NCBI GenBank assembly: GCA_017619375.1
Contig: JAFZSL010000054.1
Coordinates: 1 to 64,000, forward strand
Reading direction: 5' to 3'
DNA: 64,000 bases
Origin: Prevotella sp.
GTDB lineage: Bacteria; Bacteroidota; Bacteroidia; Bacteroidales; Bacteroidaceae
Below, piece by piece: positions 2,948 to 53,307 of this stretch. Position numbers and translations under genes: made by a program. The notes beneath the pieces are model-generated. The model had not been told where the DNA came from. It worked only from the letters and a program-made list of their open reading frames with translations, and searched no databases. Numbering within the stretch: the stretch's first letter is position 1; the number at the start of each line of letters is the position of its first letter.

Positions 2948-3372
2948 CGACTTTATTGTTCTGTTACTTTCGTTTCAAACCACTCTACTGTTCATGATCT
3001 AATAAGAATATGATTGTTCAATTAAGATGCAAAGGTAATGGAAAAAAGCGACATCAATGCCGTTTCATTAAGATAATCTGAGAAAACCACCATGAGGCGT
3101 GTGGCATGCTTAGGAACACCTGTAGCCTTCCTCGCCTAAGGTTGATTCTTGTTATGATGGAGATAGAATGGAATAAAAGTTGAAGAAGTTGTGGAAAAAG
3201 TAACTTTATTTGACTTTTGTCTTATTTCTTTGAATAGTCATGTCTTTTTGTTTTTTTAAATATTTTTTTAAAAAGATGGATTTTGACCACTTTCCATCTC
3301 TTTTTTTTGTTTTATTTTAACCCAAATAGTGAAAAATATATGGAAAAAGTTGCATTTGTCAATTCTAAATGA
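2948..3372. other. Intergenic stretch before the GH28 gene
   Basis: Very A/T rich, especially 3200-3330, with long T runs. No gene or clear hairpin is seen apart from the scrap at 2846-2947 and the promoter-like box at 3349-3380. Confidence 0.5.
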
Positions 3373-3380
3373 TATATTTG
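3349..3380 (+). promoter_or_regulatory. Probable promoter of the GH28-susCD operon
   Basis: GTTG at 3349-3352 (3 of 4 to the -33 TTTG) and TATATTTG at 3373-3380 (fits TAnnTTTG), spaced 20 nt. Transcription would start near 3387, about 90 nt before the chosen GH28 start. Confidence 0.4.
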
Positions 3381-3478
3381 TCCACACGTTGTTATCACGT
3401 GAAAGCATAAAACCCATAAAAAAACCTAACAACAGAATAAGGGCTGCAAGCCTTGATTTGTTAACCGATAATACAAAA

Positions 3479-4882
3479 ATGGATAGAATACTTGCCGTAT
3501 TGTTGTTCTCGCTGGTCATTTTTCCCGTGGCTGGCCAGAGAATGATAGACCCTGTGGATTATGGTGCACACGCAGACGGAAAGACGGATGATGCTGTAGC
3601 CATACAGCGTGCCATTGACTATTGTTCACAGCAGGGTGGGGGGACTGTTTGGTTGAGTGCCGGACATACCTACCTCTGCGGTCCCGTCAGGCTGAAATCG
3701 AACGTGGAACTTCATTTGGAAGCGACTGCCACATTGCTGGCAAATCCCGACGAGAGTGTCTATCACCTCAGTGCATTCGGTGCCAACGAAGGAGAGGGGA
3801 TGATGTGGCTGTATGCTGACGATGCGGAGAACATCTCCATTACTGGAAGGGGAACCATTCACGGCAACGGTGTTGCTTTCATGGGTAAGGAATTGGAAGA
3901 CTCTTATGAACTCAAACCTATTACCACCTTTGACCCACGCCCCCATGTGCTTACTCTTACAGGCGTGCGCAACCTCATGGTGCGCGACATCACCATTCGC
4001 GATGGGGCATATTGGACTCTTCATCTTGTAGGCTGTGACGGTGCGGTCATCGAGGGTGTCAACCTGCTCAACAATCTCAAGATACGCAATGGAGACGGCA
4101 TCGACATCGACCATTCACGAAATGTGCGTGTGGCAAACTGCCACATTACCAGCGGAGACGACTGCATCTGTTTGAAAAACAGACGTGAGACCGAGAGATA
4201 TGGCTCATGCCACGACATCGTGGTGACCAACTGCGTGATGACAAGTAGGTCGTGTGCCATTAAAATTGGTAGTGAGAACATGGATTCTATTTATAATGTG
4301 GTGTTCGACAACTGTGTCATCACTGCCTCCAATAGGGGACTTGGCATACAAAACCGAGATGAGGGGACGGTAACAGACATCGTTTTCTCAAACATCCTAC
4401 TCGACTGCCGGCTTTGGTCGGATGTGTGGTGGGGAAAGGCAGAACCCATCTATGTCACGTCTTATCCCAGAGCGAATGGAAACCACAAGGATGCCAACTG
4501 GCGCTTTCCAAAAGGACAGACCACGGGACGTTGTGGAGAAGTGTCGCGCATATGGTTCAACAACATTGCCGCAACCAGTGAGAATGGATGTTTCATTGGT
4601 GGCGACACACAGGACAAGGTCAATCACATCTACTTCAACAATGTCACACTCAACATGCGAAAGACCACGGCCTATGAGGGCGGCGTCTACGACAAGCGCC
4701 CCTGCCGCGATGAGGGATTCGTTAGGGACAAAGTGCACGGCATACTCGTGGAGAACGCTTCCGACATCATCATCAACGGCCTCCTTGTAGACTGGGGCAA
4801 AGGCGACTTCCCCAACAAAGGGATGACCCATCGGGAAAAAGACGCCCGCAACTTCATCGTCAAGGACGACCTCGAGTTGTGA
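3479..4882 (+). CDS. Secreted glycoside hydrolase family 28 (polygalacturonase-like)
   Basis: A 467-residue inverting hydrolase of the right-handed beta-helix type, acting on galacturonan or rhamnogalacturonan-like chains. The start MDRILAVLLFSLVIF gives a proper signal peptide ending at VAGQ; an upstream in-frame ATG would bury it 50 residues in. The GH28 signatures are present in order: NGDGIDID (first Asp), GDDCICLK (Asp pair), and RSCAIKIGSE with a following basic residue. The early DYGAHADGKTDDA motif is the usual pectate-lyase-superfamily N-cap. It lies 104 nt before susC with no promoter between, so the enzyme is likely co-transcribed with the transporter. Fine substrate specificity cannot be read from sequence. 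Confidence 0.88.
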   Translation: MDRILAVLLFSLVIFPVAGQRMIDPVDYGAHADGKTDDAVAIQRAIDYCSQQGGGTVWLSAGHTYLCGPVRLKSNVELHLEATATLLANPDESVYHLSAFGANEGEGMMWLYADDAENISITGRGTIHGNGVAFMGKELEDSYELKPITTFDPRPHVLTLTGVRNLMVRDITIRDGAYWTLHLVGCDGAVIEGVNLLNNLKIRNGDGIDIDHSRNVRVANCHITSGDDCICLKNRRETERYGSCHDIVVTNCVMTSRSCAIKIGSENMDSIYNVVFDNCVITASNRGLGIQNRDEGTVTDIVFSNILLDCRLWSDVWWGKAEPIYVTSYPRANGNHKDANWRFPKGQTTGRCGEVSRIWFNNIAATSENGCFIGGDTQDKVNHIYFNNVTLNMRKTTAYEGGVYDKRPCRDEGFVRDKVHGILVENASDIIINGLLVDWGKGDFPNKGMTHREKDARNFIVKDDLEL

Positions 4883-4986: not shown

Positions 4987-7900
4987 ATGCTAAAATTACG
5001 ATTCTTCAATTCAAGGAAACTATCGAAAGCCTTGCTTTTGATGGCATTCTTTGCGTGCAGCATGGCGGCCTTCGCCCAAAGCGAAGTCACCGGCGTCATC
5101 ACCGACGACCAAGGTGAACCTCTCATCGGCGTCACCGTGATGGAAGAAGGCACGCAGAACGGAGCCGTCACCGACATCGACGGCCGCTACAAAATCAATG
5201 TGAAGCCTGGCGCAAAACTCAAAATCAGTTACATTGGCTATGAACCCATGGTTATCAATGCCGGAGAAAGCGTGACCCTCAAAGAGGACAACACCACTCT
5301 CAACGAGGTCGTTGTCGTGGGTTATGGTACCATGCGCCGCAAGGACGTCACCAGTTCCATCACCACCGTCCAAGCGAAGGACCTGAACAAGGGTGTCTTC
5401 TCCGACCCCGCCTCGATGCTTCAAGGCAAGGTGGCCGGCCTCATCGTCACCTCCTCTGGCGACCCTAACGGCTCACCCTCCATCACCCTCCGTGGTGCAT
5501 CCTCATTGCGCAGTGGCGCCATGTCGCCCTACTATGTCATCGACGGCATCCCCGGCGTGGACATCTCCATGGTGGCTCCCGATGACATCGAGAGCATCGA
5601 CGTGCTCCGCGATGCCACCGCCACCGCCATCTATGGCTCGAAAGCAGCCAATGGCGTGATCATCATCACCACCAAGAGCGGCGGAAGGACGGAGCGCACC
5701 AATGTCACCTACAACGGCTACATCGCCATTGACAACATTTCCAAGAAACTCGACATCGCCACCGCCGACGACATCCGCAACTATGTGAAGGCGAACGGGC
5801 TGGATTACGCCTACGACAACCATGGCAACACCGATTGGCAAGATGAAGTGCTTCGCACTGCCATCAGCCACAATCACAACGTGTCCATCAATGGCGGCAA
5901 CCAAAGGACCAAGTACATGACCAGCGTGAACTACGCCGACCGCGAGGGTGTCATCCGCGGCTCGTACAACAACCGTCTGAACTTCCGCTCGTTGCTCTCC
6001 ACCAAGGTGCTGAAAGACCATCTGGAACTTTCTGCAGGATTCAATGCCCTGTATGGAAAATATGTTGGCGTTCCGATGAACAACGAAGGCGCCTCCGTGC
6101 TCGATGCCATGAACTACTTCTCGCCGCTCAATCCCATCAAGAATGACGACGGCACATGGTTCAGAGGCTCTGGCTCGAAGAACTACAACCCCCTGTCGTT
6201 GATCAACGAAGACACATCGGAAAGCATCTGGAAACGCAATCAACTGATTGCCAAGGCATCCTTGCTGATTGTCGATGGCCTTACGCTGAATGCCAACTAC
6301 TCCTTCAACCACTACCAGCAGACCTACAGCGCATACGACACACACCAGACCCAACTCGAGGGCGTCAGCGCATACAACGGCCGCGCCACCCGCAGCACAT
6401 GGTTTGGCGACGAAGACATCTTTGAAATCTACGGCAATTATAACAAGACCTTCAACGACATCCACACCATCGCCCTGATGGCAGGTTACTCATGGGAAGA
6501 GAAGCGTACAGGCGACGGTTTCGGCCTTACCGTCCACGACTTCTACGACGACTACCTGAAATGGAACCAGTTGTCCTATGCCAGCACTATCGACGGCATC
6601 CCCGCCGTGCAGAGCGGCACGAAAGAGACTGTGCGCAACATCTCCTTCTATGGACGTGCCAGTTATTCCTACGCAGGTCGCTACATGTTGCAGGGCACCA
6701 TCCGCCGCGACGGTTCGTCGGTCTTCGGCAAAGACCACCGTTGGGGCACATTCCCCTCTGTCTCCGCAGCATGGAACATCACCGAGGAAGAGTTCTTGAA
6801 GAACCAGCATACTCTTTCCACATTGAAATTCCGCGTAGGCTACGGTATCAGCGGTAATGCCTTGGGCTTCGGTGCTTACACTCCCTACGCTACATACGGC
6901 GCATCAGGCTTCTTCAACTACAATGGCAAGAACTGGCGCACGTTGGCCGCCACGAAGAACGCGAACCCTGACCTGAAATGGGAGAGCACCGGGATGCTGA
7001 ACATCGGTTTCGACTTCGGTTTCTTCAGGAACCGCATCAACGGTACCTTGGAATTCTACCACAAGAAGACAAAGGACCTGATCTGGGACTATCCCGTCTC
7101 CACCAACATCTACCCGTTCGGTTCCATCGCCGCCAATGTGGGTGAAATCACCAACAAGGGTGTCGAGTTGACCATCAACATCGACGCCATCCGCACCAAC
7201 GACTTCAACTGGATGACCACCATCAACCTCTCACACAACAAGAACACGGTGGATAAATTGTCCAACGACAAGTTCGAAGTGGGCACGTTCACCCAAGGCG
7301 ATCCGATGGTTGCAGGTGTCTCCTCCAATGGTTACACGCAGCGCATCATCGAAGGCGAGCCCCTCGGTACGTTCTACACCTATGAGTTCGCCGGCTACAA
7401 GGATGGCAAGTCCACCTATTATGTACGAGACGAGGCCACCGGCGAGCGCACCGGCGAGGTGACCAACGAGCCATCCTTCAAGGACCGCACCATCACAGGT
7501 TGCGCACAACCCAAGTTGAATCTTGGATGGAACAACACGTTCACCTACAAGAACCTCAGCGCTTCGCTCTTCTTCACTGGCGTCTTTGGCAACAAGATCT
7601 ACAACGGTTCGAAAGCCAACTACTCCAGCCCAGAGATGTTCGCCAATGGCAAGAACGTGCTGAAGGAATTCATCACCGACCGTCCTGCCACCGACAACCT
7701 GCCCAACTATCCTTCTGACCGCTATCTGGAGAATGGTTCATATTTCCGTCTCTCTTCAGCCACCCTGGGTTATACCTTCTATAAGTTTAATGACTGGATC
7801 GAGAGCCTCCAACTCTATGCGACCTGCAACAATGTCTTCACCATCACCGGCTACGACGGTCTCGACCCCGAAGTCAACATGGGTGGCATCGACCCCGGTA

Positions 7901-8469
7901 TCGACTACCGCTGGAGCACATATCCCCATACCCGCACGTTGATGGTCGGTGTGAAGGTCAACTTCGGTGGCGGTTCTGACAAGAAAGCACCCGCTGCGGC
8001 CGCCAAGACCGTTTACGTCACCGACAACGCAGAAATCGATCGCCTCAATGGCGAGGTCAATCGTCTGCGTGCAGAGAACGACAACTTGCGCAACCGCAAG
8101 CCTGAGACAACGAAGGAAGTCGTCAACACCAAGGAGTTTGTAACCTATCCTCACTTCGTGAATTTCGCGCTCCGTGAGACGAAGGTGCAAGACCGCGAGG
8201 TTGTCAACTTGAAGTATGTCGCTGAGATGATCAAGTCGGTGCCTGGCAAGAAATTCAGCGTTGTCGGCTATGCTGACAAGCAGACTGGCACTGCAGAAAT
8301 CAACGCCAAGTTGGCCAAGGAACGCGCCCAGAATGTCTATGACATACTCATCAAGCAGTATGGCGTTCCTGCTAACCAGTTGACGCTCGATTCAAAGGGT
8401 GGGGTTGACACGATGTTCTTGAACGACCCGCAACTCTCTCGCTCGGTGATTATCTCGGAAGTCAAATAA
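4987..8469 (+). CDS. SusC/RagA-type TonB-dependent receptor with C-terminal OmpA-like domain
   Basis: An outer-membrane importer barrel of 1,160 residues. Order: signal peptide (1-31), carboxypeptidase-regulatory-like domain (32-105), TonB-box-like EVVVVGYG (107-114), plug (about 115-235) with YVIDGIPGVDIS and GVIIITTKSG, and a 22-strand-type barrel ending at MVGVKVNF (about 993). A normal SusC stops there. Here a GGG linker, a heptad-like coil (IDRLNGEVNRLRAEN, about 1015-1035) and a complete OmpA C-terminal domain (about 1045-1160) follow, with the typical FSVVGYADKQTG, AKERAQNVYD and LSRSVIISEVK segments. The tail resembles that of Bacteroidales OmpA porins, which bind peptidoglycan. It is directly upstream of susD (19 nt). 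The frame is unbroken through the junction. Confidence 0.93.
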   Translation: MLKLRFFNSRKLSKALLLMAFFACSMAAFAQSEVTGVITDDQGEPLIGVTVMEEGTQNGAVTDIDGRYKINVKPGAKLKISYIGYEPMVINAGESVTLKEDNTTLNEVVVVGYGTMRRKDVTSSITTVQAKDLNKGVFSDPASMLQGKVAGLIVTSSGDPNGSPSITLRGASSLRSGAMSPYYVIDGIPGVDISMVAPDDIESIDVLRDATATAIYGSKAANGVIIITTKSGGRTERTNVTYNGYIAIDNISKKLDIATADDIRNYVKANGLDYAYDNHGNTDWQDEVLRTAISHNHNVSINGGNQRTKYMTSVNYADREGVIRGSYNNRLNFRSLLSTKVLKDHLELSAGFNALYGKYVGVPMNNEGASVLDAMNYFSPLNPIKNDDGTWFRGSGSKNYNPLSLINEDTSESIWKRNQLIAKASLLIVDGLTLNANYSFNHYQQTYSAYDTHQTQLEGVSAYNGRATRSTWFGDEDIFEIYGNYNKTFNDIHTIALMAGYSWEEKRTGDGFGLTVHDFYDDYLKWNQLSYASTIDGIPAVQSGTKETVRNISFYGRASYSYAGRYMLQGTIRRDGSSVFGKDHRWGTFPSVSAAWNITEEEFLKNQHTLSTLKFRVGYGISGNALGFGAYTPYATYGASGFFNYNGKNWRTLAATKNANPDLKWESTGMLNIGFDFGFFRNRINGTLEFYHKKTKDLIWDYPVSTNIYPFGSIAANVGEITNKGVELTINIDAIRTNDFNWMTTINLSHNKNTVDKLSNDKFEVGTFTQGDPMVAGVSSNGYTQRIIEGEPLGTFYTYEFAGYKDGKSTYYVRDEATGERTGEVTNEPSFKDRTITGCAQPKLNLGWNNTFTYKNLSASLFFTGVFGNKIYNGSKANYSSPEMFANGKNVLKEFITDRPATDNLPNYPSDRYLENGSYFRLSSATLGYTFYKFNDWIESLQLYATCNNVFTITGYDGLDPEVNMGGIDPGIDYRWSTYPHTRTLMVGVKVNFGGGSDKKAPAAAAKTVYVTDNAEIDRLNGEVNRLRAENDNLRNRKPETTKEVVNTKEFVTYPHFVNFALRETKVQDREVVNLKYVAEMIKSVPGKKFSVVGYADKQTGTAEINAKLAKERAQNVYDILIKQYGVPANQLTLDSKGGVDTMFLNDPQLSRSVIISEVK

Positions 8470-8488: not shown

Positions 8489-10150
8489 ATGAAAACGAAT
8501 ATAAAGGGACTATTCCTGGCCGGACTGGCCGCATTGGCTGTCGGCTGCACGGATTTGGATGTGGATGTTGATTCCCAATACATAGAATATCCAACTAACG
8601 AGATTGCCGTAGAGGCCAAGATGGCCGACATCTACTATCATTTCAGCGGTACGCTTGGCCGTCGTTACATGGAGGCGATGTGCCTTTCCAGCGACGAATG
8701 GACGGCTGCCTCCTACGGTGGTGGTTGGTACGACGGTGGTGCCTACGCTCACCCCGCCTTGCACAACTATACTTTCGAAGACGCCACACTCGACTGGTTC
8801 GGTTCCATAACAGAGGGCATCTCCAAGGCCAACAAGGCCATTCTCGATCTCGGTGGCAATGATGCAGGCGAGGCCGTCGCCCCTGCACGAGCCATCAGGG
8901 CTTATTTCCACTGGATCATCATGGACGGATGGGGCGACGTGCCCATCCTCGACCGCATCCCGGAGGATGGGGAGACCGTTGCACGCCAACCACGTGCCGA
9001 AGTGGCGAAATGGCTGGAGTCGGAACTCCTGGCTGTAATTCCCGACCTGACCACAGAAGTCAGCGAAAACACCTACGGCAAGCCTACCCGCTGGATGGCA
9101 GAGGCCCTGCTTGCCAAGATCTATATCAACTGGCCGGTTTACACCGCTTCGTCGGTGGAGAGTTATGATGCCGCCACCGCCAAGAACGAGAAGTTGGCCG
9201 ACTGCATCAGGATTTGCGACGACATCATCAACTCTGGCAAGTTCAATCTTGGTTCCATGTCCTATCGTGAGAAATTCTCCTACAACAACGGTCCTGCCGT
9301 GGAGGACTTCATCTATGCCATGCCCTACGACACGAACACACGCCAAGGCATGCAATACGGCCGCAGCCGTTGCTGGAAGAACATCAAGAAGATGTCGAAG
9401 AGTTATTTCGGCATGGCCCTCTCTCAGTCGGGCGGCGGCTACATGACGATGACTCCGGAGTTCAGCAAAATCTTCTACCTACAGGGTGACGAGCGCAACA
9501 AGTGCGTCATCGGCCTCTCCGACAACGTGGATGACTACAGGTATGTGCCAGGCAAGGAGTCGAACACCGTCTATGTCTATAATCCATCCAACCTGCAGAT
9601 GACCAACGAGGTGGCCCGCATAGCAGGTCCCGACAGCGACCCGCTGGTACTCAACATGAACGTGACACTTGCCACACCCGACGACCCAACCCTAGACGTG
9701 GGCGACAACAATACTGGCTATTGCCAAGGCTGCCGCTCCGTGAAGTGGTATGTCATCGACGATGACTTCAAGAACGGACGCAACCAGTCGAACGATGTGC
9801 CACTCTTCCGTTTCGCCGACGTACTGTTGATGAAGGCTGAGGCTCTCACACGCCAGGGTGGCTCTGCAGAGGCATTGAACTTGTTCAACATGATTCGTAC
9901 CTATGCCAAAGCGCCAGCCCTCGATCACAATCCATCGCTGGAAGAGATCTACGAGGAGCGTGGACGTGAGTTCTTCGACGAGAACTGGCGTCGCAACGAC
10001 ATGATCCGTTTCGGACACTTCGAGGACGAGTACTTCCCCCACTACAAGAACTTCCCGACGGCACGTTTCGAGAAGACCTGCCGCGTCTTCCCCATCCACA
10101 AGGATATCTTGAACCTCAACCCGAGTTGGAAACAAAACGCCGGTTATTGA
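8489..10150 (+). CDS. SusD/RagB-family surface glycan-binding lipoprotein
   Basis: The lid and glycan-binding partner of the SusC barrel, 553 residues. The lipobox ALAVGC sets the acylated Cys at 20. The N-terminal TPR-rich helices include YFHWIIMDGWGDVPI, a typical SusD segment, and the C-terminal part has the family signature LFRFADVLLMKAEAL followed by EERGREFFDENWRRNDMIRF. Length is normal for the family. Only 19 nt separate it from susC, and a strong terminator follows 25 nt after the stop, so the pair (with GH28) forms one operon. The bound ligand cannot be predicted from sequence. Confidence 0.94.
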   Translation: MKTNIKGLFLAGLAALAVGCTDLDVDVDSQYIEYPTNEIAVEAKMADIYYHFSGTLGRRYMEAMCLSSDEWTAASYGGGWYDGGAYAHPALHNYTFEDATLDWFGSITEGISKANKAILDLGGNDAGEAVAPARAIRAYFHWIIMDGWGDVPILDRIPEDGETVARQPRAEVAKWLESELLAVIPDLTTEVSENTYGKPTRWMAEALLAKIYINWPVYTASSVESYDAATAKNEKLADCIRICDDIINSGKFNLGSMSYREKFSYNNGPAVEDFIYAMPYDTNTRQGMQYGRSRCWKNIKKMSKSYFGMALSQSGGGYMTMTPEFSKIFYLQGDERNKCVIGLSDNVDDYRYVPGKESNTVYVYNPSNLQMTNEVARIAGPDSDPLVLNMNVTLATPDDPTLDVGDNNTGYCQGCRSVKWYVIDDDFKNGRNQSNDVPLFRFADVLLMKAEALTRQGGSAEALNLFNMIRTYAKAPALDHNPSLEEIYEERGREFFDENWRRNDMIRFGHFEDEYFPHYKNFPTARFEKTCRVFPIHKDILNLNPSWKQNAGY

Positions 10151-10327: not shown

Positions 10328-12967
10328 ATGACAAGAGCGAGAACATCCATCCTGACTATTTTGTGCTGCCTGTGCCTGGGACTCCACGGCCAGGACGTGT
10401 GCCGCTATGTCAATCCCCGTATTGGCAGCGAAGGAGTGGGACGCACATTCCCTGGTCCATCGATGCCTTTCGGTATGGTCAAACCCGGTCCCGACTGCGG
10501 GGTGAAGCCAAATGCGGGATGGGCGCCCATGCCCGAACCTGTTACGGGATTCTCGCAGACGCATGTCAGTGGTACGGGGGGAGGACAGAAATATGGCAAT
10601 ATCCTCATACAACCCATGGTGGATGATGTCCAGGAACAGTTGCGTACCGAAGAAACCATCCTTCTGGGTTATTATGCCACCACATACGCCAACGGCATAC
10701 GCACTGAGGTGACAACAGCGGAGCGTTGCGCTTTCTACCGCATCCACTACCCTGAACATGGACAACTGCTCGTGGATGCCACACATTATTTGGGCAAAAG
10801 CGACATACCTGACCTGCGTGAGGCGCAACAGTTCGTTGGTGCCGATCTGGAAGTGTTCTCCGATACCGAGGTGAGAGGCTATTCCACCATTCGTGGGGGA
10901 TGGAACAACGGTGATGCCTATACCGTCTATTTCGCCTTGGCTTCCGACAAGCCGTTTACGGCGCAAACCGACCCGTCGCATCAGAAAACCAAACTCTCTT
11001 TCATCGATTCCTGTGTCAACGTGAGGGTGGGCATCTCCTTTGTAAGCACGATGCAGGCAAGACGTAACATTGTAGATGTCACCTTCGAACAGCAGAAGGA
11101 AAGTTTGCTTGAGGCATGGAGGCCATTGCTGAGCAAGGTGACTCTTCGCAATGCTGACGAAAAGTCACTGCGAATGTTTTACACCGCCCTCTACCACACC
11201 ATGCTCATGCCCGTCGACCGTAGTGGCGAGAATCCCAAATGGAGCGACACCCCTTATTATGATGATTATTATGCCATTTGGGATACCTACCGTACCTCCT
11301 CGCCACTGCTTATCTTGATAGCCCCCGACCGACAACGGGACATCATACACTCCATGCTCAACATCTACCGTCGAGAGGGATATCTGCCCGAAGGACGCAG
11401 TGGCAACTGCAACGGCCGCACGCAGGGAGGCAGCAACGCCGAAGTGGTGCTCGCCGACGCCTATGTGAAACACCTCGATGGCATCGACTATGAATGGGCG
11501 CTCGAGGCGATGCTGAAGGACGCCACCGTACCACCTGGAGGCAACGAGGAGAAAGAAGGCAGGGGAGGTCTTGCTTACTATAACACATTGGGCTACATCC
11601 CCTACGGGGTGGACCGCGCCGGCAACCGCACCATCGAGTATGCTCTCGACGACCATTGCATCGCCACCGTGGCGGAGGGGCTCGGATTTGACGACGTCGC
11701 AGCGGAATACAGCAAAAAGGCCACCAACTGGAAGAACCTCTGGCGCAAGGACTACGAATATGATGGCATGCGGGGGTTCGTCATGCCTCGTGACGCTAAC
11801 GGACAGTGGTTGGACAGCGTGCCTTGGGGACACTCCAAAGTGTTCCATCCACGCATACATTATACCCCCACCACGAAGGTGGCACCGTGGTATCTCCCGT
11901 GGTGGTCGACATTTTTTTATGAGGCGACATCGGAGGAATATTCCTTGAGTGTGCCTCATGATGTGCTGGGGCTTGTCGAAGCGTGTGGGGGAGATGAGGC
12001 GTTTCGCAAAAGACTGGATTTGTTCTTCGAGCGAAATTATTACAATGTGGCGAACGAACCTTCCTTCCTTACCCCATGCCTGTACCATTGGATCGGCAGA
12101 CCCGACTTGAGTACGAGAAGGGTGCATGACATCATCAACAAACACTATGGAGACACGCCGGATGGACTGCCTGGCAACGACGATTCGGGGGCCATGTCGT
12201 CATGGCTGGCATTTCACATGATGGGACTGTATCCCAATGCGGGACATGACTATTATCTGCTCAACTTGCCGCTGTTCGACGAGGGCTATCAATTCCTTCT
12301 TCCCAATGGCAATATCCTTCAAGTGGAGACGCGTGGAAAGGGAACGGATTACTCACACGCCACACTCAATGGCGTGCAACTCGCCGACGCGCGCATCACT
12401 CACGACCAACTCCTCGGTGGTGGAAAACTGGTGTATTGGAAGAAAAAGCCTGTCGCTGAAACAGCAGCCACGCCACCATCTTCCATACCTGCCACGCGTG
12501 TCATGCCCAAGAGCAATGACGACCCCGCCTCAATCGCTGCTGTGAAAGGAGAGATTTCCTATACACTCAACAAACAATTCCGCACATGGCCCATCACCAT
12601 GACTTGGAGAGATGATGTGCTTTGTGTGAAGTGCAAGGAAGCCTCCTATTTGATGTCATTCGACACAGTGTCCTCTGCTAATGGCTTCTGTTGGGATAGT
12701 CCGCAGGTCGATGGGGCTTTTTATGAGGCGAAAGGCACTTTCGGCTTTATTTCTCGACAGGCTTTCAACCATCTCCTGAATGATGGATGGTTTGTCTATG
12801 ATGACATCACTTGGCGCGAGACCTCACGCACAGAGGACACCATCACCGTGAGGGCCGACATCGACCGAACGGAAATGACCATCTCGCGAACCCTGCCTCT
12901 GCCTTTGGTGCTTAAGATGCACCGAAACCCTTTGGGAATAGACTGGAATCTCAATGTATATGAATAG
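10328..12967 (+). CDS. GH92 alpha-mannosidase with C-terminal extension
   Basis: An exported calcium-dependent exo-alpha-mannosidase, 879 residues. The signal peptide ends near LGLHGQ. The N-domain signature VNPRIGSEGVGRTFPGPSMP and the GFSQTHVSGTG motif are typical, and the catalytic domain carries NEPS with Glu577 (position of the family acid) and GNDDSGAMSSW with Asp618/Asp619 (base region). GH92 proteins usually end at about 720-770 residues. Here some 150 further residues follow a proline-rich linker (TPPSSIPATR, near 720), forming a mostly beta domain with many Trp and Phe that I do not recognise; it could bind carbohydrate or pack on the enzyme. Its stop overlaps the start of the next GH92 gene, so the two are translationally coupled. 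Confidence 0.9.
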   Translation: MTRARTSILTILCCLCLGLHGQDVCRYVNPRIGSEGVGRTFPGPSMPFGMVKPGPDCGVKPNAGWAPMPEPVTGFSQTHVSGTGGGQKYGNILIQPMVDDVQEQLRTEETILLGYYATTYANGIRTEVTTAERCAFYRIHYPEHGQLLVDATHYLGKSDIPDLREAQQFVGADLEVFSDTEVRGYSTIRGGWNNGDAYTVYFALASDKPFTAQTDPSHQKTKLSFIDSCVNVRVGISFVSTMQARRNIVDVTFEQQKESLLEAWRPLLSKVTLRNADEKSLRMFYTALYHTMLMPVDRSGENPKWSDTPYYDDYYAIWDTYRTSSPLLILIAPDRQRDIIHSMLNIYRREGYLPEGRSGNCNGRTQGGSNAEVVLADAYVKHLDGIDYEWALEAMLKDATVPPGGNEEKEGRGGLAYYNTLGYIPYGVDRAGNRTIEYALDDHCIATVAEGLGFDDVAAEYSKKATNWKNLWRKDYEYDGMRGFVMPRDANGQWLDSVPWGHSKVFHPRIHYTPTTKVAPWYLPWWSTFFYEATSEEYSLSVPHDVLGLVEACGGDEAFRKRLDLFFERNYYNVANEPSFLTPCLYHWIGRPDLSTRRVHDIINKHYGDTPDGLPGNDDSGAMSSWLAFHMMGLYPNAGHDYYLLNLPLFDEGYQFLLPNGNILQVETRGKGTDYSHATLNGVQLADARITHDQLLGGGKLVYWKKKPVAETAATPPSSIPATRVMPKSNDDPASIAAVKGEISYTLNKQFRTWPITMTWRDDVLCVKCKEASYLMSFDTVSSANGFCWDSPQVDGAFYEAKGTFGFISRQAFNHLLNDGWFVYDDITWRETSRTEDTITVRADIDRTEMTISRTLPLPLVLKMHRNPLGIDWNLNVYE

Positions 12968-15900
12968 GACACTGACGTTGTTGTTGGCCATCATGCTCTC
13001 CTCCATGATGATGGCACAACAAAAAACACGGGAGCAGATGGGGGGCGTATATTATGCCTACCCCGTAAGCCATGTGCTCATTCACCCTGATGCTCCAGAG
13101 GGATACACGCCTTTTTACATCTCCCATTATGGTAGACATGGGTCGAGGTTCCTCCCTTCGGACAGTCGATATGAATGGGTTGTCGAACAGTTGGCTGACA
13201 AGCGGAAACTGACAAGGGAAGGAAAGCGCTTGCGGAAACAGATGGGAAAGATATGGCGCCAGGCAAGAGGACATGGAGGACAACTGACACTGCTTGGAGG
13301 GAAGCAACACCAGGCCATCGCCAATCGAATGGTGGAGAACTTCCCAGAGGTGTTCACCAACGACACTCATGTCCGCGCACGTTCCAGTGTGGTCAACCGT
13401 TGTGTGGTCAGCATGGGAAACTTCATTGATGCCTTGCGCCTGCGCTGTCCCCAACTCGACATCGACAGTGCGGCTGATTCGGTGGACATGGGTTATATCG
13501 CCTTTACATCGCCTGAACTCAAGCAAATAGAGAAAGGACCTTTTGTGAAGATGTATGGCACGCCCGACCGCTTGATGCAACTTCTTTTCAAAGACCCCTC
13601 CAGCGTGGAAGACCCCGTGTTGCTCATGGGGGAATTGCACACCATCGCATCCGATATGCAGGATGTTGTCACCCCGTCTTTCCATCAGAACCTTTACTGG
13701 CTCTTCACCGACGAGGAGATGTATGATATCTATGAGTGCAACAACAAACGGATGGCGTATTGCAATGGCAACGACCCACGCACGGGGGGCGAACCTGCCA
13801 GGTCGGCTCTTTCTTTGTGGAACGACATCCTGACAAAAGCGGATGAGGCTGTCGCAAAGACATCACCGTCGGTTGACCTCCGTTTTGGTCATGACACCAA
13901 CCTCTACCGCCTCCTTTCCCTTATGCAGGCTTCCTCGGCTCAGAGTGGCAAGATGGACGAGATTCTTCCGATGGCTGCCAATCTGCAGATGATTTTCTAC
14001 CGTAACACTCAAGGTGATATTTTGGTAAGGCTGTTGCAAAACGAACGAGATTTCACCCTTCCAATTCCTTCCGTTGGAGCGCATTTCTACCGATGGAGCG
14101 ACATCAAGGCATTCATGGCTGACCGTATTCATCGACTGGACCATGAGAAACGTCTCATGAAAATCAATACGATGGTGGGTACGGCTCAAGCCAACACACG
14201 TTCCGCAGGTCTATTCGGAAAAGGCAGTGAGGAACATGGACAGACATTGCCTGCGGTTCTCGTTCCCAATGGACAGAATTTCTGGACACCACAGACACGC
14301 GATACGGAGCAAAAATGTTTGGCGCCTTATTACCATGCCGACTCATTGTGGCAGGGAATGCGCAACTCACACTGGATAGTGGGTGGGTGCACCCAGGATT
14401 ATGGTTCCTTCACCATTGCTGCATTGGGGGGCTCGCTTCGAACAACCCCCGACAGCCGTGCCACGCCTTTCATCCATGCCGACGAGGTGTCGCATCCCCA
14501 TTACTATGGAATCCGTCTACCCGAGGAGCATCTGTTGGTGGAACTGACTGCTTCTGCTCATGGGGCGGTGATGCGCATCACTCCCGACCGTGACCAAATG
14601 GTGCATGTGGTATTTCAACCCAATAGTGATGAGGGTGAGGGAGGAGTGGATATCGACACCGCCGCAGGAACCGTGTGGGGATGCAATCCTGTACACCGCA
14701 TCTATCAAGGATGGGGAGAGAGAGCGGGATTCAGTGGGCATTTGCTGATGCATTATGTCGACACTCCAGTGTCGTATGGCACTTTTGTCGCTGACACCAA
14801 GAAGGAAGGTTCCACGTCTGTGGCTGGAAAGGAGCAGATGGGGGCATGGCTGTCGTTTCATGGCAAGGCACACCAGGCCATCGTCCTTACGTTGGCGTCG
14901 TCGTTCAACAGCCTCGATGGGTGCAGGCGAAATATGGAGGCGGAGGTTGAAGGACTTGGTTTCGAGCAGATGATGCACAAGGCGTCGCAGGCCTGGATAG
15001 ATCGTCTGCACACGATTGACGTGGAGGGCGACGAGGCTGATGTCAACCAATTTTATGGGGCGCTCTATCGTGCCTCCTTCCTGCCGCGGTTGCTAAGCGA
15101 TGCCGATGGGGCATATCCTCGTTTCGCCAGTGGAGCCACCATTCAAGGCACAAGGCCTGTTTATACTGATTTCTCGATGTGGGACACCTACCGAGCCTTG
15201 CATCCTCTTTACCATATCATTGCCCCACGCGAGTCTGCCGACATGATGCAGTCTTTAGTCAATATGGCACAGGAGGGAGGATGGCTGCCCATCTTTCCAT
15301 GCTGGAATTCCTACACGGCTGCCATGATAGGCGACCATTGTGCCGCCACCTTGGCAGATGCCCGTTTGAAGGGTGTTCGGGGCTTTGATGTGGAGAAGGC
15401 TTATCAAGCCATGCGCAGGAATGCTTTTGAGTCACCTGCCTCGGAGCGTGACTACAAGGACGGAATGGGGCGAAGGGCGTTGGAATCATACTTGAAATAC
15501 GGATACATCCCATTGGAGGACTCCGTGCTTGAGGCTTTTCACACGCAAGAACAGACATCGCGCACGTTGGAATATGCTTTCGACGACTTTGCTGTGGCAC
15601 AGATGGCGAAGGCTCTTGGACAGGTGGATGACTACAAGGCGCTGATGGCGCGTTCTGCCAACTGGCGGAATGTCATTAATCCCCGAACGGGTTATGCCGA
15701 TGGCCGTCATGCCGATGGCCGGTTTGAAAACAATATGGATGTCGTCCACCGCAAAAACTTCATCACCGAGGGTGCCACTTGCCACTATACTTGGTATGTG
15801 CCACATGACCCGCAAGGACTCATCGACGTGATGGGAGGGGAGGAGGATTTCGTGGCTCGTCTCGACTCGATGTTCACCGAGGGGCGGTATTGGCACGGCA

Positions 15901-16316
15901 ATGAACCCTGTCATCAGGTGCCTTATATGTTTGACTACGCAGGAAGACCTGACCTCACACAGAAATGGGTGCGTCACATCATGCGCACGGAGTATAACGA
16001 TTCTCCGGGAGGACTGTCGGGCAACGACGATGCCGGGCAGATGTCGGCTTGGTATGTCTTTTCTGCCATGGGATTCTATCCCGTTTGTCCCGCAACCGAC
16101 CAATATATGTTGGGGTCGCCTCTGTTCAGCCTCGTGAAAGTCAATCCTCCAGGTGGTGCCACATTCACCATCGAGGCTCCGGGATGTGATGACAATCATT
16201 TGTATATCCAAGAGGCCACGATGGACGGTAGACCCCTCAAGAACCACGTCCTCACGCAGGGGGACATTGCAAATGGCGCTACATTGCGATTGAAAATGAG
16301 TACCAATCCAAAATAA
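12960..16316 (+). CDS. Fusion of histidine acid phosphatase and GH92 alpha-mannosidase
   Basis: 1,118 residues with a signal peptide ending near MMMAQ. Residues about 25-395 form a histidine-acid-phosphatase domain (clade containing multiple inositol polyphosphate phosphatase and phytases), with the nucleophile motif RHGSR at 59-63 and the proton-donor motif HD at 311-312. Residues about 403-1118 are a full GH92 domain: NGQNFWTPQT, then YTWYVPHDPQG, GNEPCHQ (Glu982) and GNDDAGQMSAW (Asp1023/Asp1024). Both active sites look complete. The ATG at 12960 is preferred over 12954; either overlaps the upstream gene's end. One polypeptide could remove phosphate and then mannose from phosphorylated mannosides. 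That coupling is inference. Confidence 0.88.
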   Translation: MNRTLTLLLAIMLSSMMMAQQKTREQMGGVYYAYPVSHVLIHPDAPEGYTPFYISHYGRHGSRFLPSDSRYEWVVEQLADKRKLTREGKRLRKQMGKIWRQARGHGGQLTLLGGKQHQAIANRMVENFPEVFTNDTHVRARSSVVNRCVVSMGNFIDALRLRCPQLDIDSAADSVDMGYIAFTSPELKQIEKGPFVKMYGTPDRLMQLLFKDPSSVEDPVLLMGELHTIASDMQDVVTPSFHQNLYWLFTDEEMYDIYECNNKRMAYCNGNDPRTGGEPARSALSLWNDILTKADEAVAKTSPSVDLRFGHDTNLYRLLSLMQASSAQSGKMDEILPMAANLQMIFYRNTQGDILVRLLQNERDFTLPIPSVGAHFYRWSDIKAFMADRIHRLDHEKRLMKINTMVGTAQANTRSAGLFGKGSEEHGQTLPAVLVPNGQNFWTPQTRDTEQKCLAPYYHADSLWQGMRNSHWIVGGCTQDYGSFTIAALGGSLRTTPDSRATPFIHADEVSHPHYYGIRLPEEHLLVELTASAHGAVMRITPDRDQMVHVVFQPNSDEGEGGVDIDTAAGTVWGCNPVHRIYQGWGERAGFSGHLLMHYVDTPVSYGTFVADTKKEGSTSVAGKEQMGAWLSFHGKAHQAIVLTLASSFNSLDGCRRNMEAEVEGLGFEQMMHKASQAWIDRLHTIDVEGDEADVNQFYGALYRASFLPRLLSDADGAYPRFASGATIQGTRPVYTDFSMWDTYRALHPLYHIIAPRESADMMQSLVNMAQEGGWLPIFPCWNSYTAAMIGDHCAATLADARLKGVRGFDVEKAYQAMRRNAFESPASERDYKDGMGRRALESYLKYGYIPLEDSVLEAFHTQEQTSRTLEYAFDDFAVAQMAKALGQVDDYKALMARSANWRNVINPRTGYADGRHADGRFENNMDVVHRKNFITEGATCHYTWYVPHDPQGLIDVMGGEEDFVARLDSMFTEGRYWHGNEPCHQVPYMFDYAGRPDLTQKWVRHIMRTEYNDSPGGLSGNDDAGQMSAWYVFSAMGFYPVCPATDQYMLGSPLFSLVKVNPPGGATFTIEAPGCDDNHLYIQEATMDGRPLKNHVLTQGDIANGATLRLKMSTNPK

Positions 16317-16407: not shown

Positions 16408-18732
16408 ATGAAAAAAATCCTCGGACTTCATCCTACCATTTCCCAACATGGCAGAGTAAGAACAAGTTCTGCTCTTCTCTTTTGGCTTAATCTAATGGTT
16501 CTCATTGTCTTTGGCGTCATGGTCGCGTCCCATGCATTGGCGAACCCAGTGGATGATATGCTGGAGCGCATCGATGCTGGTGCTTCCAAAAAGTTCAAAA
16601 CTCAACTGGTCAAGGCTGATAAGGATTTCTTCGAACTTGACCAAAGCGGAACGAAAGTAGTGGTCAGGGGCAACACCTGGGTCAACATCGCCACAGGTGT
16701 CAATTGGTATCTGAAATACCATGCCGGAATCCATCTTTCATGGAACGGAATGAAGGCGAGGCTGCCGCAAAGGTTGCCTGAGGTGACACGAATCGAGCGC
16801 CATGAGACTGACTTGACATTGCGCTATGATTTCAACTACTGCACATTCTCTTACTCCATGGCTTTCTGGGACTGGGACAGATGGCAGCAGGAAATCGATT
16901 GGATGGCGCTGCACGGTGTCAACATGCCGCTTGCCATCGTGGGTGAGGAATGTGTGTGGCGCAACATGCTCCTGAAAATGGGATATAACGAGGAGGAAGT
17001 GGGGAAGTTCATTGCCGGACCAGCCTTCCTCGCATGGTGGGAGATGAACAATCTCGAAGGTTGGGGAGGACCATTGCCTGCTTCGTGGTATGACAGGCAA
17101 CTACGGCTGCAGCGACAGATCTTGGAGCGCATGAAACAGTGGGGCATGCACCCCGTTCTGCCTGGTTATTCGGGAATGGTGCCTCATGACGCACGCGAGA
17201 GACTCGGACTCAATGTGGCGGATGCCGGACTGTGGAATGGCTTCCAACGACCTGCCAATCTCCTTCCTACAGACCCGCGTTTTGATGAAATCGCACGACT
17301 TTATTATGACGAGTTGACACGACTTTTTGGCAAGGCTGACTACTACTCTATGGACCCCTTCCATGAGAGCAATGATGACAGTAGGATAGATTATGCCGAG
17401 GCGGCAAGGGTGTTGCTGAAGGCCATGAGACGCGCCAACCCTAAGGCGATATGGGTGGTGCAAGGTTGGACGGAGAACCCAAGACCACAGATGCTTCAAG
17501 CACTCAAAGAGGGAGATGTCATTGTGCTTGACCTCTTCAGTGAGTGCCGGCCTATGTGGGGCGCGCCCTCCATCTGGCATAGGGAGAAAGGATACGAGGG
17601 GCATCAGTGGCTGTTCTGTTTGCTCGAGAACTTTGGAGGAAATGTGGGATTGCATGGGCGCATGGACCAACTTATCGACAATTTCTACCTTACCAAGACG
17701 CATCCCATGGCAAGGGGACTGAATGGCATCGGATTCACCATGGAAGGGTCGGAGAACAATCCTGTCATGTTCGAACTGATGAGCGAACTCCCTTGGCGAC
17801 CTGAACGATTCTCAAAGGAACAATGGGTGGCTGATTATGTCAAGGCGCGCTATGGCATCGACAATCCCACCATTCAAAAGGCATGGAAAGTGCTCGCACA
17901 AAGCATCTACAATTGTCCGGTGGGCAACAACCAGCAAGGACCTCATGAGAGCATCTTCTGCGGAAGGCCTTCCCTCAACAATTTCCAGGCATCAAGTTGG
18001 TCGAAGATGCGCAACTACTACGACCCGGAAGCCACTCTGGAAGCGGCGCGTCTCATGGTGTCGGTGGCAGAAAACTTTAAGGGAAACAATAATTTTGAGT
18101 ACGACCTCGTGGACATCACTCGTCAGGCGGTGGCTGACCAAGCTCGTATCCTTTACCAACGCGTCATTGCCGATTACAAGGCGTTTTCCCGCAAGGCGTT
18201 TGAGAATGATTCAAAGCATTTCATCCAACTCCTGATGGCTCAGGACCAATTGCTGGGCACACGTAGGGAATTCCGTGTGGGAAACCGAATCAGTCAGGCA
18301 AGGCAATGTGGTTATTCTCAGGAGGAAAAAGACCTCTATGAATGGAATGCGCGTGTGCAGGTGACTACATGGGGCAACCGTTACTGCGCCGACACGGGAG
18401 GCTTGCGCGACTATGCCCATAAGGAATGGCAGGGAATGCTCTCCGACTTCTATGCTGTGAGGTGGAAAACCTACTTCCGGCTGCTTTCAGAACAAATGGA
18501 GGCGATGACGAATCCCGCACCCGAGATGCTTGGGACAGGGCAACATAGCAACAAGACCGCTGATGAATTGTTCCAGATGGCTCTACCGCAAGAAGTGACT
18601 GTCGACTGGTATGCCATAGAGGAACCTTGGACACTGAGCCGTGACACCTATTCTCCCGAACCTCAAGGCGACCCTGTTGCCATGGCGCAGAAAGTTTTAC
18701 AGGAAATTCAGAACCTTCATTTGAATGAATGA
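16408..18732 (+). CDS. GH89 alpha-N-acetylglucosaminidase
   Basis: An exported exo-enzyme of 774 residues releasing terminal alpha-linked GlcNAc, as in heparan fragments or the GlcNAc-alpha-1,4-Gal cap of gastric mucin. It is homologous to human NAGLU along its full length: NAGLU N-terminal domain, then the TIM barrel with ALHGVNMPLAIVGEE, LPASWYDRQLRLQ and YSGMVPHDA. The acid lies in DPFHESNDD (Glu320) and the nucleophile in FTMEGSENNP (Glu446); the spacing agrees with the family. A hydrophobic stretch at about 24-44 is the signal or anchor, preceded by a longer-than-usual basic N-terminus. It follows the GH92 pair by 91 nt on the same strand. Confidence 0.92.
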   Translation: MKKILGLHPTISQHGRVRTSSALLFWLNLMVLIVFGVMVASHALANPVDDMLERIDAGASKKFKTQLVKADKDFFELDQSGTKVVVRGNTWVNIATGVNWYLKYHAGIHLSWNGMKARLPQRLPEVTRIERHETDLTLRYDFNYCTFSYSMAFWDWDRWQQEIDWMALHGVNMPLAIVGEECVWRNMLLKMGYNEEEVGKFIAGPAFLAWWEMNNLEGWGGPLPASWYDRQLRLQRQILERMKQWGMHPVLPGYSGMVPHDARERLGLNVADAGLWNGFQRPANLLPTDPRFDEIARLYYDELTRLFGKADYYSMDPFHESNDDSRIDYAEAARVLLKAMRRANPKAIWVVQGWTENPRPQMLQALKEGDVIVLDLFSECRPMWGAPSIWHREKGYEGHQWLFCLLENFGGNVGLHGRMDQLIDNFYLTKTHPMARGLNGIGFTMEGSENNPVMFELMSELPWRPERFSKEQWVADYVKARYGIDNPTIQKAWKVLAQSIYNCPVGNNQQGPHESIFCGRPSLNNFQASSWSKMRNYYDPEATLEAARLMVSVAENFKGNNNFEYDLVDITRQAVADQARILYQRVIADYKAFSRKAFENDSKHFIQLLMAQDQLLGTRREFRVGNRISQARQCGYSQEEKDLYEWNARVQVTTWGNRYCADTGGLRDYAHKEWQGMLSDFYAVRWKTYFRLLSEQMEAMTNPAPEMLGTGQHSNKTADELFQMALPQEVTVDWYAIEEPWTLSRDTYSPEPQGDPVAMAQKVLQEIQNLHLNE

Positions 18733-18898: not shown

Positions 18899-19984
18899 AT
18901 GAATAGTCAGACCAAAACCTCCTCCCGCTTGTTGTCACTCGACATCCTTCGTGGCTTGACAGTGGCTGGCATGATATTGGTAAACAATGGACATGGAGAG
19001 TCTTTCGAGATGCTAAGACACTCCAAATGGAATGGCATGACACCATGCGACCTTGTTTTCCCATTCTTCCTCTTCATCATGGGTGTCTCCACCTACCTTT
19101 CATTGTCGAAAAGTGGGTTCAAGATGTCGGCACCAGTCGTGAGGAAAATCATACGCCGTACGGTGCTGCTCTTTGTCATCGGCTTGGCAATCAACTGGCT
19201 TGACCACGCCGTGGAGGGAGACCTTCTTTGCTTTGGACACTTGCGAGTTTGGGCGGTGTTGCAACGCATTGCGCTTTGCTATGGCATCGTGTCGGTCTAT
19301 GTGTTGCTCGTCAATCACAAATGGATTGTGCCTACCATTGTCATCCTGCTCGTGGCCTATTCGGCGCTCCTATTGTTTGGGAATGGATACGCCGAGGATT
19401 CCTCAAACATCCTCGCAAGGGTTGACCTGAGTTTGTTTGGCTATGACCATCTCTACCACAAGAGTCCGGTTGATCCTGAGGGATTGGTGGGCACCATCTC
19501 GTCGGTGGCGCATGTGCTCATAGGTTTCCAATGTGGAAAACTCATCAAGCAGCATGCCGAGGTGCGCGACAAAGTGCTGGCTATATTTTTCATGGGGACG
19601 GCGTTGGCTTTGGCTGGTTATCTGCTTTCCTATGGGTTGCCTCTCAACAAGCGTATATGGAGCACGAGTTATGTCATGGTGACCTGTGGCATGGCATCTG
19701 CGCTACTTGCATTGCTGATGACCATCATCGACATTCGAGGCCACAGTCAATGGACCACATTCTTCCGTGTGTTCGGTGTCAACCCGCTTTTCCTTTATGT
19801 GGCGAGCGAGGTTCTCGCCATCATACTTGGCCATATTGGTGTTAGTGACATGGTGTTCAATGCTATTCATTCCGTCATCACACATCCGCAAATGGCATCT
19901 CTATGCTATGCCCTCTATTTCGTGACCCTTCTCTTTGTCTTGGGGTATATCCTCTACAGACGCCGTATTTTCATCAAATTGTAA
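18899..19984 (+). CDS. Heparan-alpha-glucosaminide N-acetyltransferase-like membrane protein (COG4299)
   Basis: A 361-residue polytopic inner-membrane protein with about 10 hydrophobic spans. The family hallmark is at the start: SLDILRGLTVAGMILVNN, then CDLVFPFFLFIMGVS. This is the YeiB/HGSNAT-type acyltransferase superfamily, which moves acetyl groups across the membrane onto amino sugars; the human relative HGSNAT acetylates terminal glucosamine of heparan sulfate. The next-upstream gene is a NAGLU homologue, the enzyme that acts right after HGSNAT in lysosomes. The bacterial substrate is not known from sequence. Confidence 0.85.
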   Translation: MNSQTKTSSRLLSLDILRGLTVAGMILVNNGHGESFEMLRHSKWNGMTPCDLVFPFFLFIMGVSTYLSLSKSGFKMSAPVVRKIIRRTVLLFVIGLAINWLDHAVEGDLLCFGHLRVWAVLQRIALCYGIVSVYVLLVNHKWIVPTIVILLVAYSALLLFGNGYAEDSSNILARVDLSLFGYDHLYHKSPVDPEGLVGTISSVAHVLIGFQCGKLIKQHAEVRDKVLAIFFMGTALALAGYLLSYGLPLNKRIWSTSYVMVTCGMASALLALLMTIIDIRGHSQWTTFFRVFGVNPLFLYVASEVLAIILGHIGVSDMVFNAIHSVITHPQMASLCYALYFVTLLFVLGYILYRRRIFIKL

Positions 19985-52176: not shown

Positions 52177-53307
52177 TTAGGCCTTCTGCTCTTCCATTTT
52201 TTTGCTCTTGATGAGTTTGATGATGAGGTTGGAGGTTTTCTTTCCCACGACGTTGCTTCCTGAAGCCACAATGACGGGGATGGTGACGAGGGCGTCTTTC
52301 ATCGCCTGCCATTTCACCGCCCGTTTGTTCTTGATGCCTGTCAGGGCCTGTTCGCCTTGCTGTAGGTATGTGCGGGTGATGTATCCTATGCGGAGTGTCA
52401 TCAGCGCGTTCACCGTGCCGTCAAGGGCGGAGCCCACCACGACACCCGGAATCTTTATACGCCGCAGGATGGAATATACCGACAATCCCTCGCTGTTGGT
52501 CAACTGTTCGTCGAAACCGACATCATCCGGGTCTATGCCCGCTGTTGCGCCTTCCATGGCATCCACGTCGGCGGCGTCGCTTGCGGCATCTGTCCCGCTG
52601 TCGTGGAGGTCTCCAAAGTCGAAGGGTGCGATTGCACTTGTTTTTGTTAAAGCCTCCGACATTGCGTAAGTGATCAATGCAGTGGTCAGGATGTCACGGT
52701 AGATTTTGAACATCTGGCGGTTGTTGGGACGGAAGCCGGAGGCCAGCACCAAACTTTCTATCATCTTGTAATTGAGCCACATTACACTGATGGTGTCGAA
52801 TCGGCTGTTCTGTGAGATGGCGGAGATCATGAAGACGGTTTTCGCCCATTCCTTGATTTGCCCGTTGATGCCGAGGACGCCATGGGCCTTGTCGCCGTCA
52901 TATCGCAGGGTCATTTCCTGTCGGAGGACCTCTAGCAATTGAGAGCGGCTTCCAGAGGCGTGTAGCAGGCTGGTTTCCAATGTCTTTTGGTGCTCCTTCC
53001 TCTTTTGAGTGTCTTCGATGAAGTCGCAATGTTCCACAAGTCTCTGTCCATAGTCTCTGAGTTGTTCCTCACTGGCCTCCTCGTCAACGGACAGTGCAGG
53101 AAAGGCTGGACTGCGGTGTACACGCCAGACTGGAAGGAGGATGTAATAGGAGAAGATGCCGAGCAAAAGAGCATAAAACACCCATTCCAACCACCACAGG
53201 TGGGTGATACTGGCGATTTTCTCACCGATGATGATGATGTTGCCCGACACCATCAAGGCCAGGATGCCGAGAAAGATGCAGGCGATGATGATCAAGTTGC
53301 GTCTCAT
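52177..53307 (-). CDS. Membrane partner of the dynamin-like GTPase (DUF697/YcjF-like)
   Basis: 376 residues. Two adjacent membrane spans at the N-terminus (about 4-27 and 36-60), a coil-like region (about 75-130), then a C-terminal helical domain (about 140-370). The last includes glycine-rich hydrophobic helices (IPGVVVGSALDGTVNALMTL, then TIPVIVASGSNVVGKKTSNL) of the kind seen in DUF697/YcjF proteins, and an acidic stretch (about 235-265). Its start overlaps the GTPase stop by 4 nt, so the two are made together. The likely role is to place the GTPase at the inner membrane. Confidence 0.7.
   Translation of the reverse strand: MRRNLIIIACIFLGILALMVSGNIIIIGEKIASITHLWWLEWVFYALLLGIFSYYILLPVWRVHRSPAFPALSVDEEASEEQLRDYGQRLVEHCDFIEDTQKRKEHQKTLETSLLHASGSRSQLLEVLRQEMTLRYDGDKAHGVLGINGQIKEWAKTVFMISAISQNSRFDTISVMWLNYKMIESLVLASGFRPNNRQMFKIYRDILTTALITYAMSEALTKTSAIAPFDFGDLHDSGTDAASDAADVDAMEGATAGIDPDDVGFDEQLTNSEGLSVYSILRRIKIPGVVVGSALDGTVNALMTLRIGYITRTYLQQGEQALTGIKNKRAVKWQAMKDALVTIPVIVASGSNVVGKKTSNLIIKLIKSKKMEEQKA

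Follow-up and report, generated by a model that had tools for sequence, protein, structure and literature searches.

SusC-type TonB-dependent receptors with OmpA-like C-terminal tails recur in Prevotella

Members of the SusC/RagA family usually end at the last strand of their barrel, and SusC functions as a SusC2D2 dimer. The OmpA domain of Acinetobacter baumannii holds diaminopimelate through one Asp and one Arg. In Flavobacterium johnsoniae, passages of one study give the SusC barrel 22 strands and name OmpA as the anchor between outer membrane and cell wall, with SusC as a separate protein (PMC12611786). The attachment of the Bacteroidota outer membrane to the wall is unsettled: in excerpts of another article, pal genes went undetected in one survey and PorE is only a proposal (PMC12204202). 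Part of a further report names two proteins of Bacteroides thetaiotaomicron that are retained in the membrane and missing from vesicles, a TonB-dependent receptor and a porin that has a peptidoglycan-binding domain (PMC6222051). Here we analyse a stretch of 64,000 nucleotides from Prevotella sp. (GenBank assembly GCA_017619375.1, contig JAFZSL010000054.1, positions 1 to 64,000 of the forward strand; hereafter the window), in which the gene at 4987..8469 joins a SusC-type receptor to an OmpA C-terminal domain. The architecture is real and recurrent; it combines two well-known families, its tails come from several sources and can be swapped, and it is undescribed in the literature searched; the function that we propose for it is likely, as read from the sequence. 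The fusion gene is laid out as follows.

4987..8469, + strand: SusC/RagA TonB-dependent receptor plus OmpA C-terminal domain in one open frame of 1160 aa (open reading frame and domain scans)
4987..5079, + strand: signal peptide region, residues 1-31, ending AFAQ (by eye; predicted local distance difference test score, pLDDT, <50 for 1-31)
5086..5316, + strand: carboxypeptidase-regulatory-like N-terminal extension, residues 34-110 (PF13715, CarbopepD_reg_2)
5338..5658, + strand: plug domain, residues 118-224 (PF07715)
5659..7965, + strand: SusC barrel, last predicted strand at residues 982-993 (7930-7965) (TIGR04056 to 993; structure model)
7966..8028, + strand: GGGS and Lys/Ala/Pro-rich linker, residues 994-1014 (translation; pLDDT <50 for 995-1017)
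8029..8091, + strand: predicted helix, heptad-like EIDRLNGEVNRLRAENDNL (heptad by eye), residues 1015-1035, 21 residues (model and alignments)
8152..8466, + strand: OmpA-like domain, residues 1056-1160 (PF00691; predicted fold; nearest solved chain 9uu2, profile E 1.5e-26)
8275..8277, + strand: Asp1097, putative counterpart of the diaminopimelate-binding Asp of OmpA (invariant in A1, A2 and A3; aligned with 3td3)
8323..8325, + strand: Arg1113, putative counterpart of the diaminopimelate-binding Arg of OmpA (invariant in A1, A2 and A3; aligned with 3td3)

In an NCBIfam scan the SusC/RagA model TIGR04056 covered residues 33-993 (787.2 bits against a cut-off of 368.25; profile positions 2-981 of 981) and the SusC/RagA signature TIGR04057 residues 200-230 (62.4 bits, cut-off 46.2), while the Pfam barrel match spans residues 393-950. 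The protein runs on for 167 residues beyond residue 993 and thus does not end at the last barrel strand; this extension holds the PF00691 match at residues 1060-1150 (E 1.4e-10, 41.9 bits against a gathering cut-off of 27.2). In the structure model the last strand occupies 982-993; beyond a low-confidence linker come a helix (1015-1035) and then a fold of the OmpA type (1056-1159). Phe993 ends the last predicted strand and codon 994 begins at 7966. The preliminary description, written from the letters of the window, had put the fused part at 7966..8469, and its start proved exact to the base, falling on the codon after Phe993; the Gly linker, coiled coil and OmpA C-terminal domain that it placed past the last strand correspond to GGGS, the predicted helix at residues 1015-1035 and the PF00691 match. 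The barrel matches SusC instead of the 8-strand barrel of an OmpA porin, and a Pfam scan up to E 0.1 gave no match to an SLH domain of the OmpM type in the fusion protein.

Relatives were examined as the best 80 of 216 confirmed ones. The nearest are two separately named metagenome-assembled genomes (MAGs), RUG13201 (locus L038, labelled Prevotellaceae) and RGIG6036 (L039, from sheep omasum, labelled Prevotella), which have the same barrel-tail junction at 96% identity over barrel and tail. Many record titles of the kept loci name rumen, omasum or other ruminant samples, and the host of the fusion gene is probably a ruminant-gut Prevotella. The named comparison genomes with a tail of the window's type are metagenome assemblies, a circumstance in which an assembly chimera or misjoined contig has to be considered; we give this explanation next to no credence and reject it, as the junction is shared by two separately named assemblies, the SusD gene comes directly next and divergence is similar on both sides. 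The fusion, as the preliminary description had it, is genuine. The ratio of nonsynonymous to synonymous substitution rates (dN/dS) was computed for seven pairs in all. In the three closest (the window against L038, L041 and L042) it was 0.043, 0.061 and 0.085 for the OmpA domain and 0.046, 0.078 and 0.075 for plug and barrel; here the OmpA tail is constrained about as strongly as the barrel, and its low values make it very likely that the tail is translated and under constraint. The four more distant pairs gave higher values in both parts (plug and barrel 0.179-0.297; OmpA domain 0.112, 0.213, 0.271 and one saturated). Directly ahead of its tail, a separate fusion (L124, genome G411) lacks residues of its last barrel strand that the closely related L125 has, through a deletion or an assembly fault.

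The order recurs across the genus. Tails of the window's type (type 1) lie at 39 places in 31 of 299 genomes at an identity of at least 54%; 37 of these places are in frames of 1164-1313 aa and the other two start at a contig edge, the protein beside the tail having been read for the 30 fetched places and the remainder being known by frame length alone. Type-2 tails, 35-36% identical to that of the window, are found on SusC proteins in 4 of 298 genomes, a type-3 tail is carried by the Oar-like receptor L122, and type-4 tails (motif AYASPEG) occur at 22 places in 17 of 298 genomes (E up to 1e-24), comprising 20 frames of more than 1100 aa (17 of the 20 fetched), one 466-aa fragment and one 393-aa porin. 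By a hand count from genome handles, a receptor-OmpA fusion is present in about 47 of about 299 genomes (31 with type 1, 16 with type 4 including the 466-aa fragment, and 4 with type 2; types 1 and 4 occur together in four genomes). Of the 80 kept loci, 58 had a tail with an identity to that of the window of 53% or more, 55 of these 58 being labelled Prevotella or Prevotellaceae. The family sample yielded frames of 1235-1259 aa in three genomes of another genus, and in the order sample (295 genomes, tail profile, E up to 1e-26) the sole long-frame match was the window's own, the other 18 lying in frames of 374-443 aa. PF00691 in 31 genomes of the phylum gave no frame of 1000-1350 aa among the matches listed, a weak negative in that the window's own match was also unlisted. 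We did not see the fusion as an ordinary architecture of the whole phylum in either sample. The preliminary description had spoken of a new design; the SusC-OmpA order is not unique to the window, and what stands of the novelty is that no description of a TonB-dependent receptor-OmpA fusion was found in open-licence PubMed Central. Two single genomes, G283 and G095, each hold three different SusC-like receptors, all with type-4 OmpA tails (L162-L166 and L141). At L095:8678-10477 a window-type tail lies in a frame of only 600 codons with no contig edge near, the receptor gene being interrupted.

The tails are spread over diverse receptors. The 81 fusion rows, six of which are repeats (L125, L126, L157, L158, L160 and L161), fall into 11 receptor families whether barrels are grouped at 40, 45 or 50% identity, and carry four tail types; six of the 11 families are single proteins, that of L094 being one. 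Two tail types are present in each of three families (types 1 and 4 in A and in B, types 1 and 3 in E). When six fusion proteins were scanned against NCBIfam, four scored above the SusC cut-off and two, L054 and L122, below it. L054 matches the barrel model PF25183, which we take to be Oar-like, and L122 is a 53% relative of the L054 group. Among the 50 loci obtained from L038-L095 by leaving aside six Oar-like and two porin loci, the next gene belongs to one SusD-like similarity cluster in 49; in the fiftieth, L094, it weakly matches the SusD of the window (E 2.5e-5). Four of the 50, L095 among them, have barrels too short to classify. The Oar-like receptors with a window-type tail (L054, L056, L065, L070, L085 and L089) have in place of the SusD-like cluster a lipoprotein-like gene of a shared family next to them, BACON-like by eye.

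We then compared the histories of tails and barrels. The tail tree was built from 59 tail rows, the window and 8 of the 22 outgroup porins (68 rows in all). It unites the window-type tails in a single clade (99/97) through which the barrel families are scattered; by the starred branches, the label must have changed at least 4 times for family A, at least 3 times each for families B and E and at least twice for family C. At the DNA level, the SusC genes of L061 (family B) and L048 (family C) are 89% identical over the last 125 codons and mostly 40-60% upstream, and L080 (SusC) and L054 (Oar-like) are 84% identical in the tail and at a background of 35-48% from 140 residues upward; in six pairs DNA identity steps up some 100-160 residues before the C-terminus, in the region of the helix and the beginning of the OmpA domain. 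Judged from these comparisons, the tails have been acquired and exchanged between unrelated receptors by recombination. Two stand-alone porins of 422-426 aa also fall in the window-type clade (L087:9170-10435 and L088:9158-10435, OmpA porins with a window-type tail from two Bacteroidaceae-labelled MAGs, L088 from sheep omasum), and these could possibly be relatives of the tail donor. When all tail types were put in one tree, type 4 clustered with the L007-type porin of the genome itself (100/99), and types 2 and 3 were weakly placed on long branches. The recombination origin proposed in the preliminary description thus holds through the tail tree, the identity step and the barrel tree, but not its suggestion that the donor was among the strain's own ompA-like genes: a blastn comparison of 7966-8469 with the six other OmpA-domain loci of the genome gave chance-level matches only (best E 0.4), so that recent exchange with, or conversion from, these genes is unsupported and was set aside.

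The orthologues of the window's barrel are tail-less or carry, at the same junction and behind a similar GGG-KKK linker, either a window-type or a type-4 tail. One tail-less orthologue (L127, genome G013) is 82% identical to the window's barrel and ends VGAKINF followed by a stop. In a tree of 46 orthologous barrels (20 tail-less, 16 type 1 and 10 type 4), built by a quick method that makes support looser and excluding L157, L158, L160 and L161 as copies of L044, L078, L079 and L092, nine state changes are needed, and the starred branches force at least 6 changes for the tail-less state. A single old fusion inherited vertically is incompatible with the tail and barrel trees. In the tail-less L147 and L149 a short stub remains, GGSKKK or GDGKKK, as if a tail had been lost, and tails have probably been lost at times in this genus. 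Such repeated changes of tail state, the remnant-like ends of L147 and L149 and the interrupted frame of L095 would also be expected if frequent recombination among genes for outer-membrane proteins simply carried the tails along, nearly neutrally. We hold this to be very improbable: OmpA domain and barrel have similarly low dN/dS in the three closest pairs, and the frame runs uninterrupted through barrel and tail at 37 of 39 places, with the remaining two located at contig edges. Receptors that otherwise stop at their last strand have thus repeatedly received an OmpA tail at that point, a plain example of domain shuffling.

A profile alignment with 3td3 and the related entries listed puts Asp1097 and Arg1113 on OmpA positions, with a one-residue insertion between them, and we take these to be the positions of the diaminopimelate-binding Asp and Arg. 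The spaced Asp/Arg motif is present in all 60 window-type rows (one repeat and two porins included) and in five of five type-2 and type-3 tails. The helix EIDRLNGEVNRLRAENDNL is strongly conserved in window-type tails, with the E, R, L, N and E columns invariant among 18 rows, and since SusC functions as a SusC2D2 dimer, two tails would exit side by side and could pair. On the strength of the Asp/Arg conservation, the helix and this possible pairing, we read the protein as a SusC-type glycan importer with an OmpA tail tethered to peptidoglycan, the tails being a swappable module in the genus, a reading that we consider probable; wall anchoring of the receptor is likely, to judge from the conserved residues. 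The tail would leave the periplasmic end of the last strand via the flexible linker, the short coiled coil would probably pair the tails of the two SusC copies in the dimer, and the two OmpA domains would then hold wall diaminopimelate, a tether that may steady the barrel against the pull of TonB on the plug and may keep the importer on the cell. The four OmpA tail types behind the last strand of 11 receptor families (40-50% identity cut) were exchanged between receptors by recombination. More speculatively, and at chances that we would place somewhat below even, ruminant Prevotella may have evolved wall-anchored TonB-dependent importers in which interchangeable OmpA anchor cassettes travel from one receptor gene to another and let each cell tune which importers are pinned, and in which a pinned SusC2D2 dimer, joined by a two-stranded coiled coil, gives TonB a fixed counterforce.

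Two other functions have to be weighed against this. The OmpA domain might do another job, such as receptor pairing or docking of a periplasmic enzyme or a part of the TonB system, without holding the wall; the type-4 tails without the Asp and the conserved heptad-like helix preceding window-type domains are compatible with it. We regard it as quite unlikely, because the Asp and Arg are kept in every window-type row and in all type-2 and type-3 tails, and because the presence of four different OmpA tail types on receptors speaks for a feature that OmpA domains have in common. Alternatively, the receptor could be mainly structural, an abundant protein serving as an extra anchor from outer membrane to wall in a phylum without a recognised Pal, with no gain in transport from the tail. 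The tails sit on many unrelated receptors, as if the substrate of the barrel were irrelevant, and passages on OmpM describe tethering and uptake combined in one protein elsewhere (PMC10628300). However, OmpA-domain proteins are already present in the genome, among them three of OmpA type (371-387 aa), and of its seven PF00691 matches the window's own is the only one in a frame longer than 700 aa. Moreover, a receptor from a polysaccharide utilisation locus is usually made only when its glycan is present and would hardly suit as a permanent anchor, and we find this alternative fairly unlikely.

Several observations weigh against a wall-tethered importer. Tail-less orthologues are common (20 of the 46 rows), and the tail is therefore not needed for the receptor as such. 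The type-4 tails have Ser for the Asp, by eye, in 10 of 10 cases on group A receptors, so that wall binding is not to be assumed for type 4, and the helix motif is also found in the stand-alone porins L087 and L088, so that the helix may simply have come along with the tail. The structure model is only moderate (mean pLDDT 72.6, predicted template modelling score 0.64) and leaves the placement of linker and domain open, and the frame of L095 is cut about 600 codons from its end, away from a contig edge. The gain, exchange and probable loss of tails among related receptors suggest that certain nutrient importers are held at the wall. Close relatives of which one has a tail and the other has none are natural test material, and comparing such orthologues therefore makes both outer membrane-to-wall attachment in Bacteroidota and the resistance of the barrel to the pull of TonB testable.

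The neighbouring genes, all in the direction of the fusion gene, are listed below.

3329..4882, + strand: glycoside hydrolase family 28 (GH28) polygalacturonase-like, upstream of the fusion gene (PF00295)
8489..10150, + strand: SusD-like lipoprotein, partner gene (PF07980, E 4.5e-26; PF14322)
10328..12967, + strand: GH92 alpha-mannosidase-like (PF07971, PF17678)
12954..16316, + strand: histidine phosphatase domain fused to GH92 (PF00328, PF07971, PF17678)
16408..18732, + strand: alpha-N-acetylglucosaminidase (NAGLU)-like, presumably GH89 (PF05089, PF12972, PF12971)

The SusD-like gene starts 19 bases past the stop of the fusion gene, and from its gene content (GH28, SusD, GH92, phosphatase-GH92 and NAGLU) the locus looks like a polysaccharide utilisation locus. 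The frame at 12954-16316 encodes a single 1120-aa protein in which a PF00328 histidine phosphatase precedes a full GH92, thus joining a phosphatase to an alpha-mannosidase-like enzyme. Past the NAGLU gene and in the orientation of the fusion gene, 18899-19984 gives a weak DUF5009 match (23.2 bits, cut-off 25). Elsewhere in the window, a DUF4140/DUF4139 protein at 50147-52060 (- strand) has a carboxypeptidase-regulatory-like domain (residues 300-380) nested in its DUF4139 match (215-630), and a dynamin-family GTPase (PF00350) is encoded at 53304-55190 (- strand).

Compared with described systems, the fusion is like the SusC/RagA (TIGR04056) SusCD importers of Bacteroidota in its N-terminal extension, plug, barrel, signature, SusD partner and setting resembling a polysaccharide utilisation locus, and differs from the usual members and from its tail-less orthologues, which end at the last strand, by an additional 167 residues with an OmpA domain. 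With porins of the OmpA/OprF type, including the 'Major outer membrane protein' 9uu2, it shares the C-terminal OmpA domain with its Asp and Arg, which we take to have the binding role; OmpA itself has a small 8-strand barrel without TonB coupling, whereas the barrel of the fusion is of the SusC class. PorE, as portrayed in excerpts of the article on it, is likewise a Bacteroidota protein with a C-terminal Pal/OmpA-type domain and a proposed outer-membrane tether, but it is a lipoprotein whose other domains resemble CpoB, TolB and carboxypeptidase and which, as far as those excerpts go, has no transport barrel (PMC12204202). OmpM of diderm Firmicutes, according to passages of its description, resembles the fusion in uniting nutrient uptake and outer-membrane tethering in one protein; it does so as a trimeric porin with an N-terminal SLH domain, in contrast to a TonB-dependent receptor with a C-terminal OmpA domain (PMC10628300).
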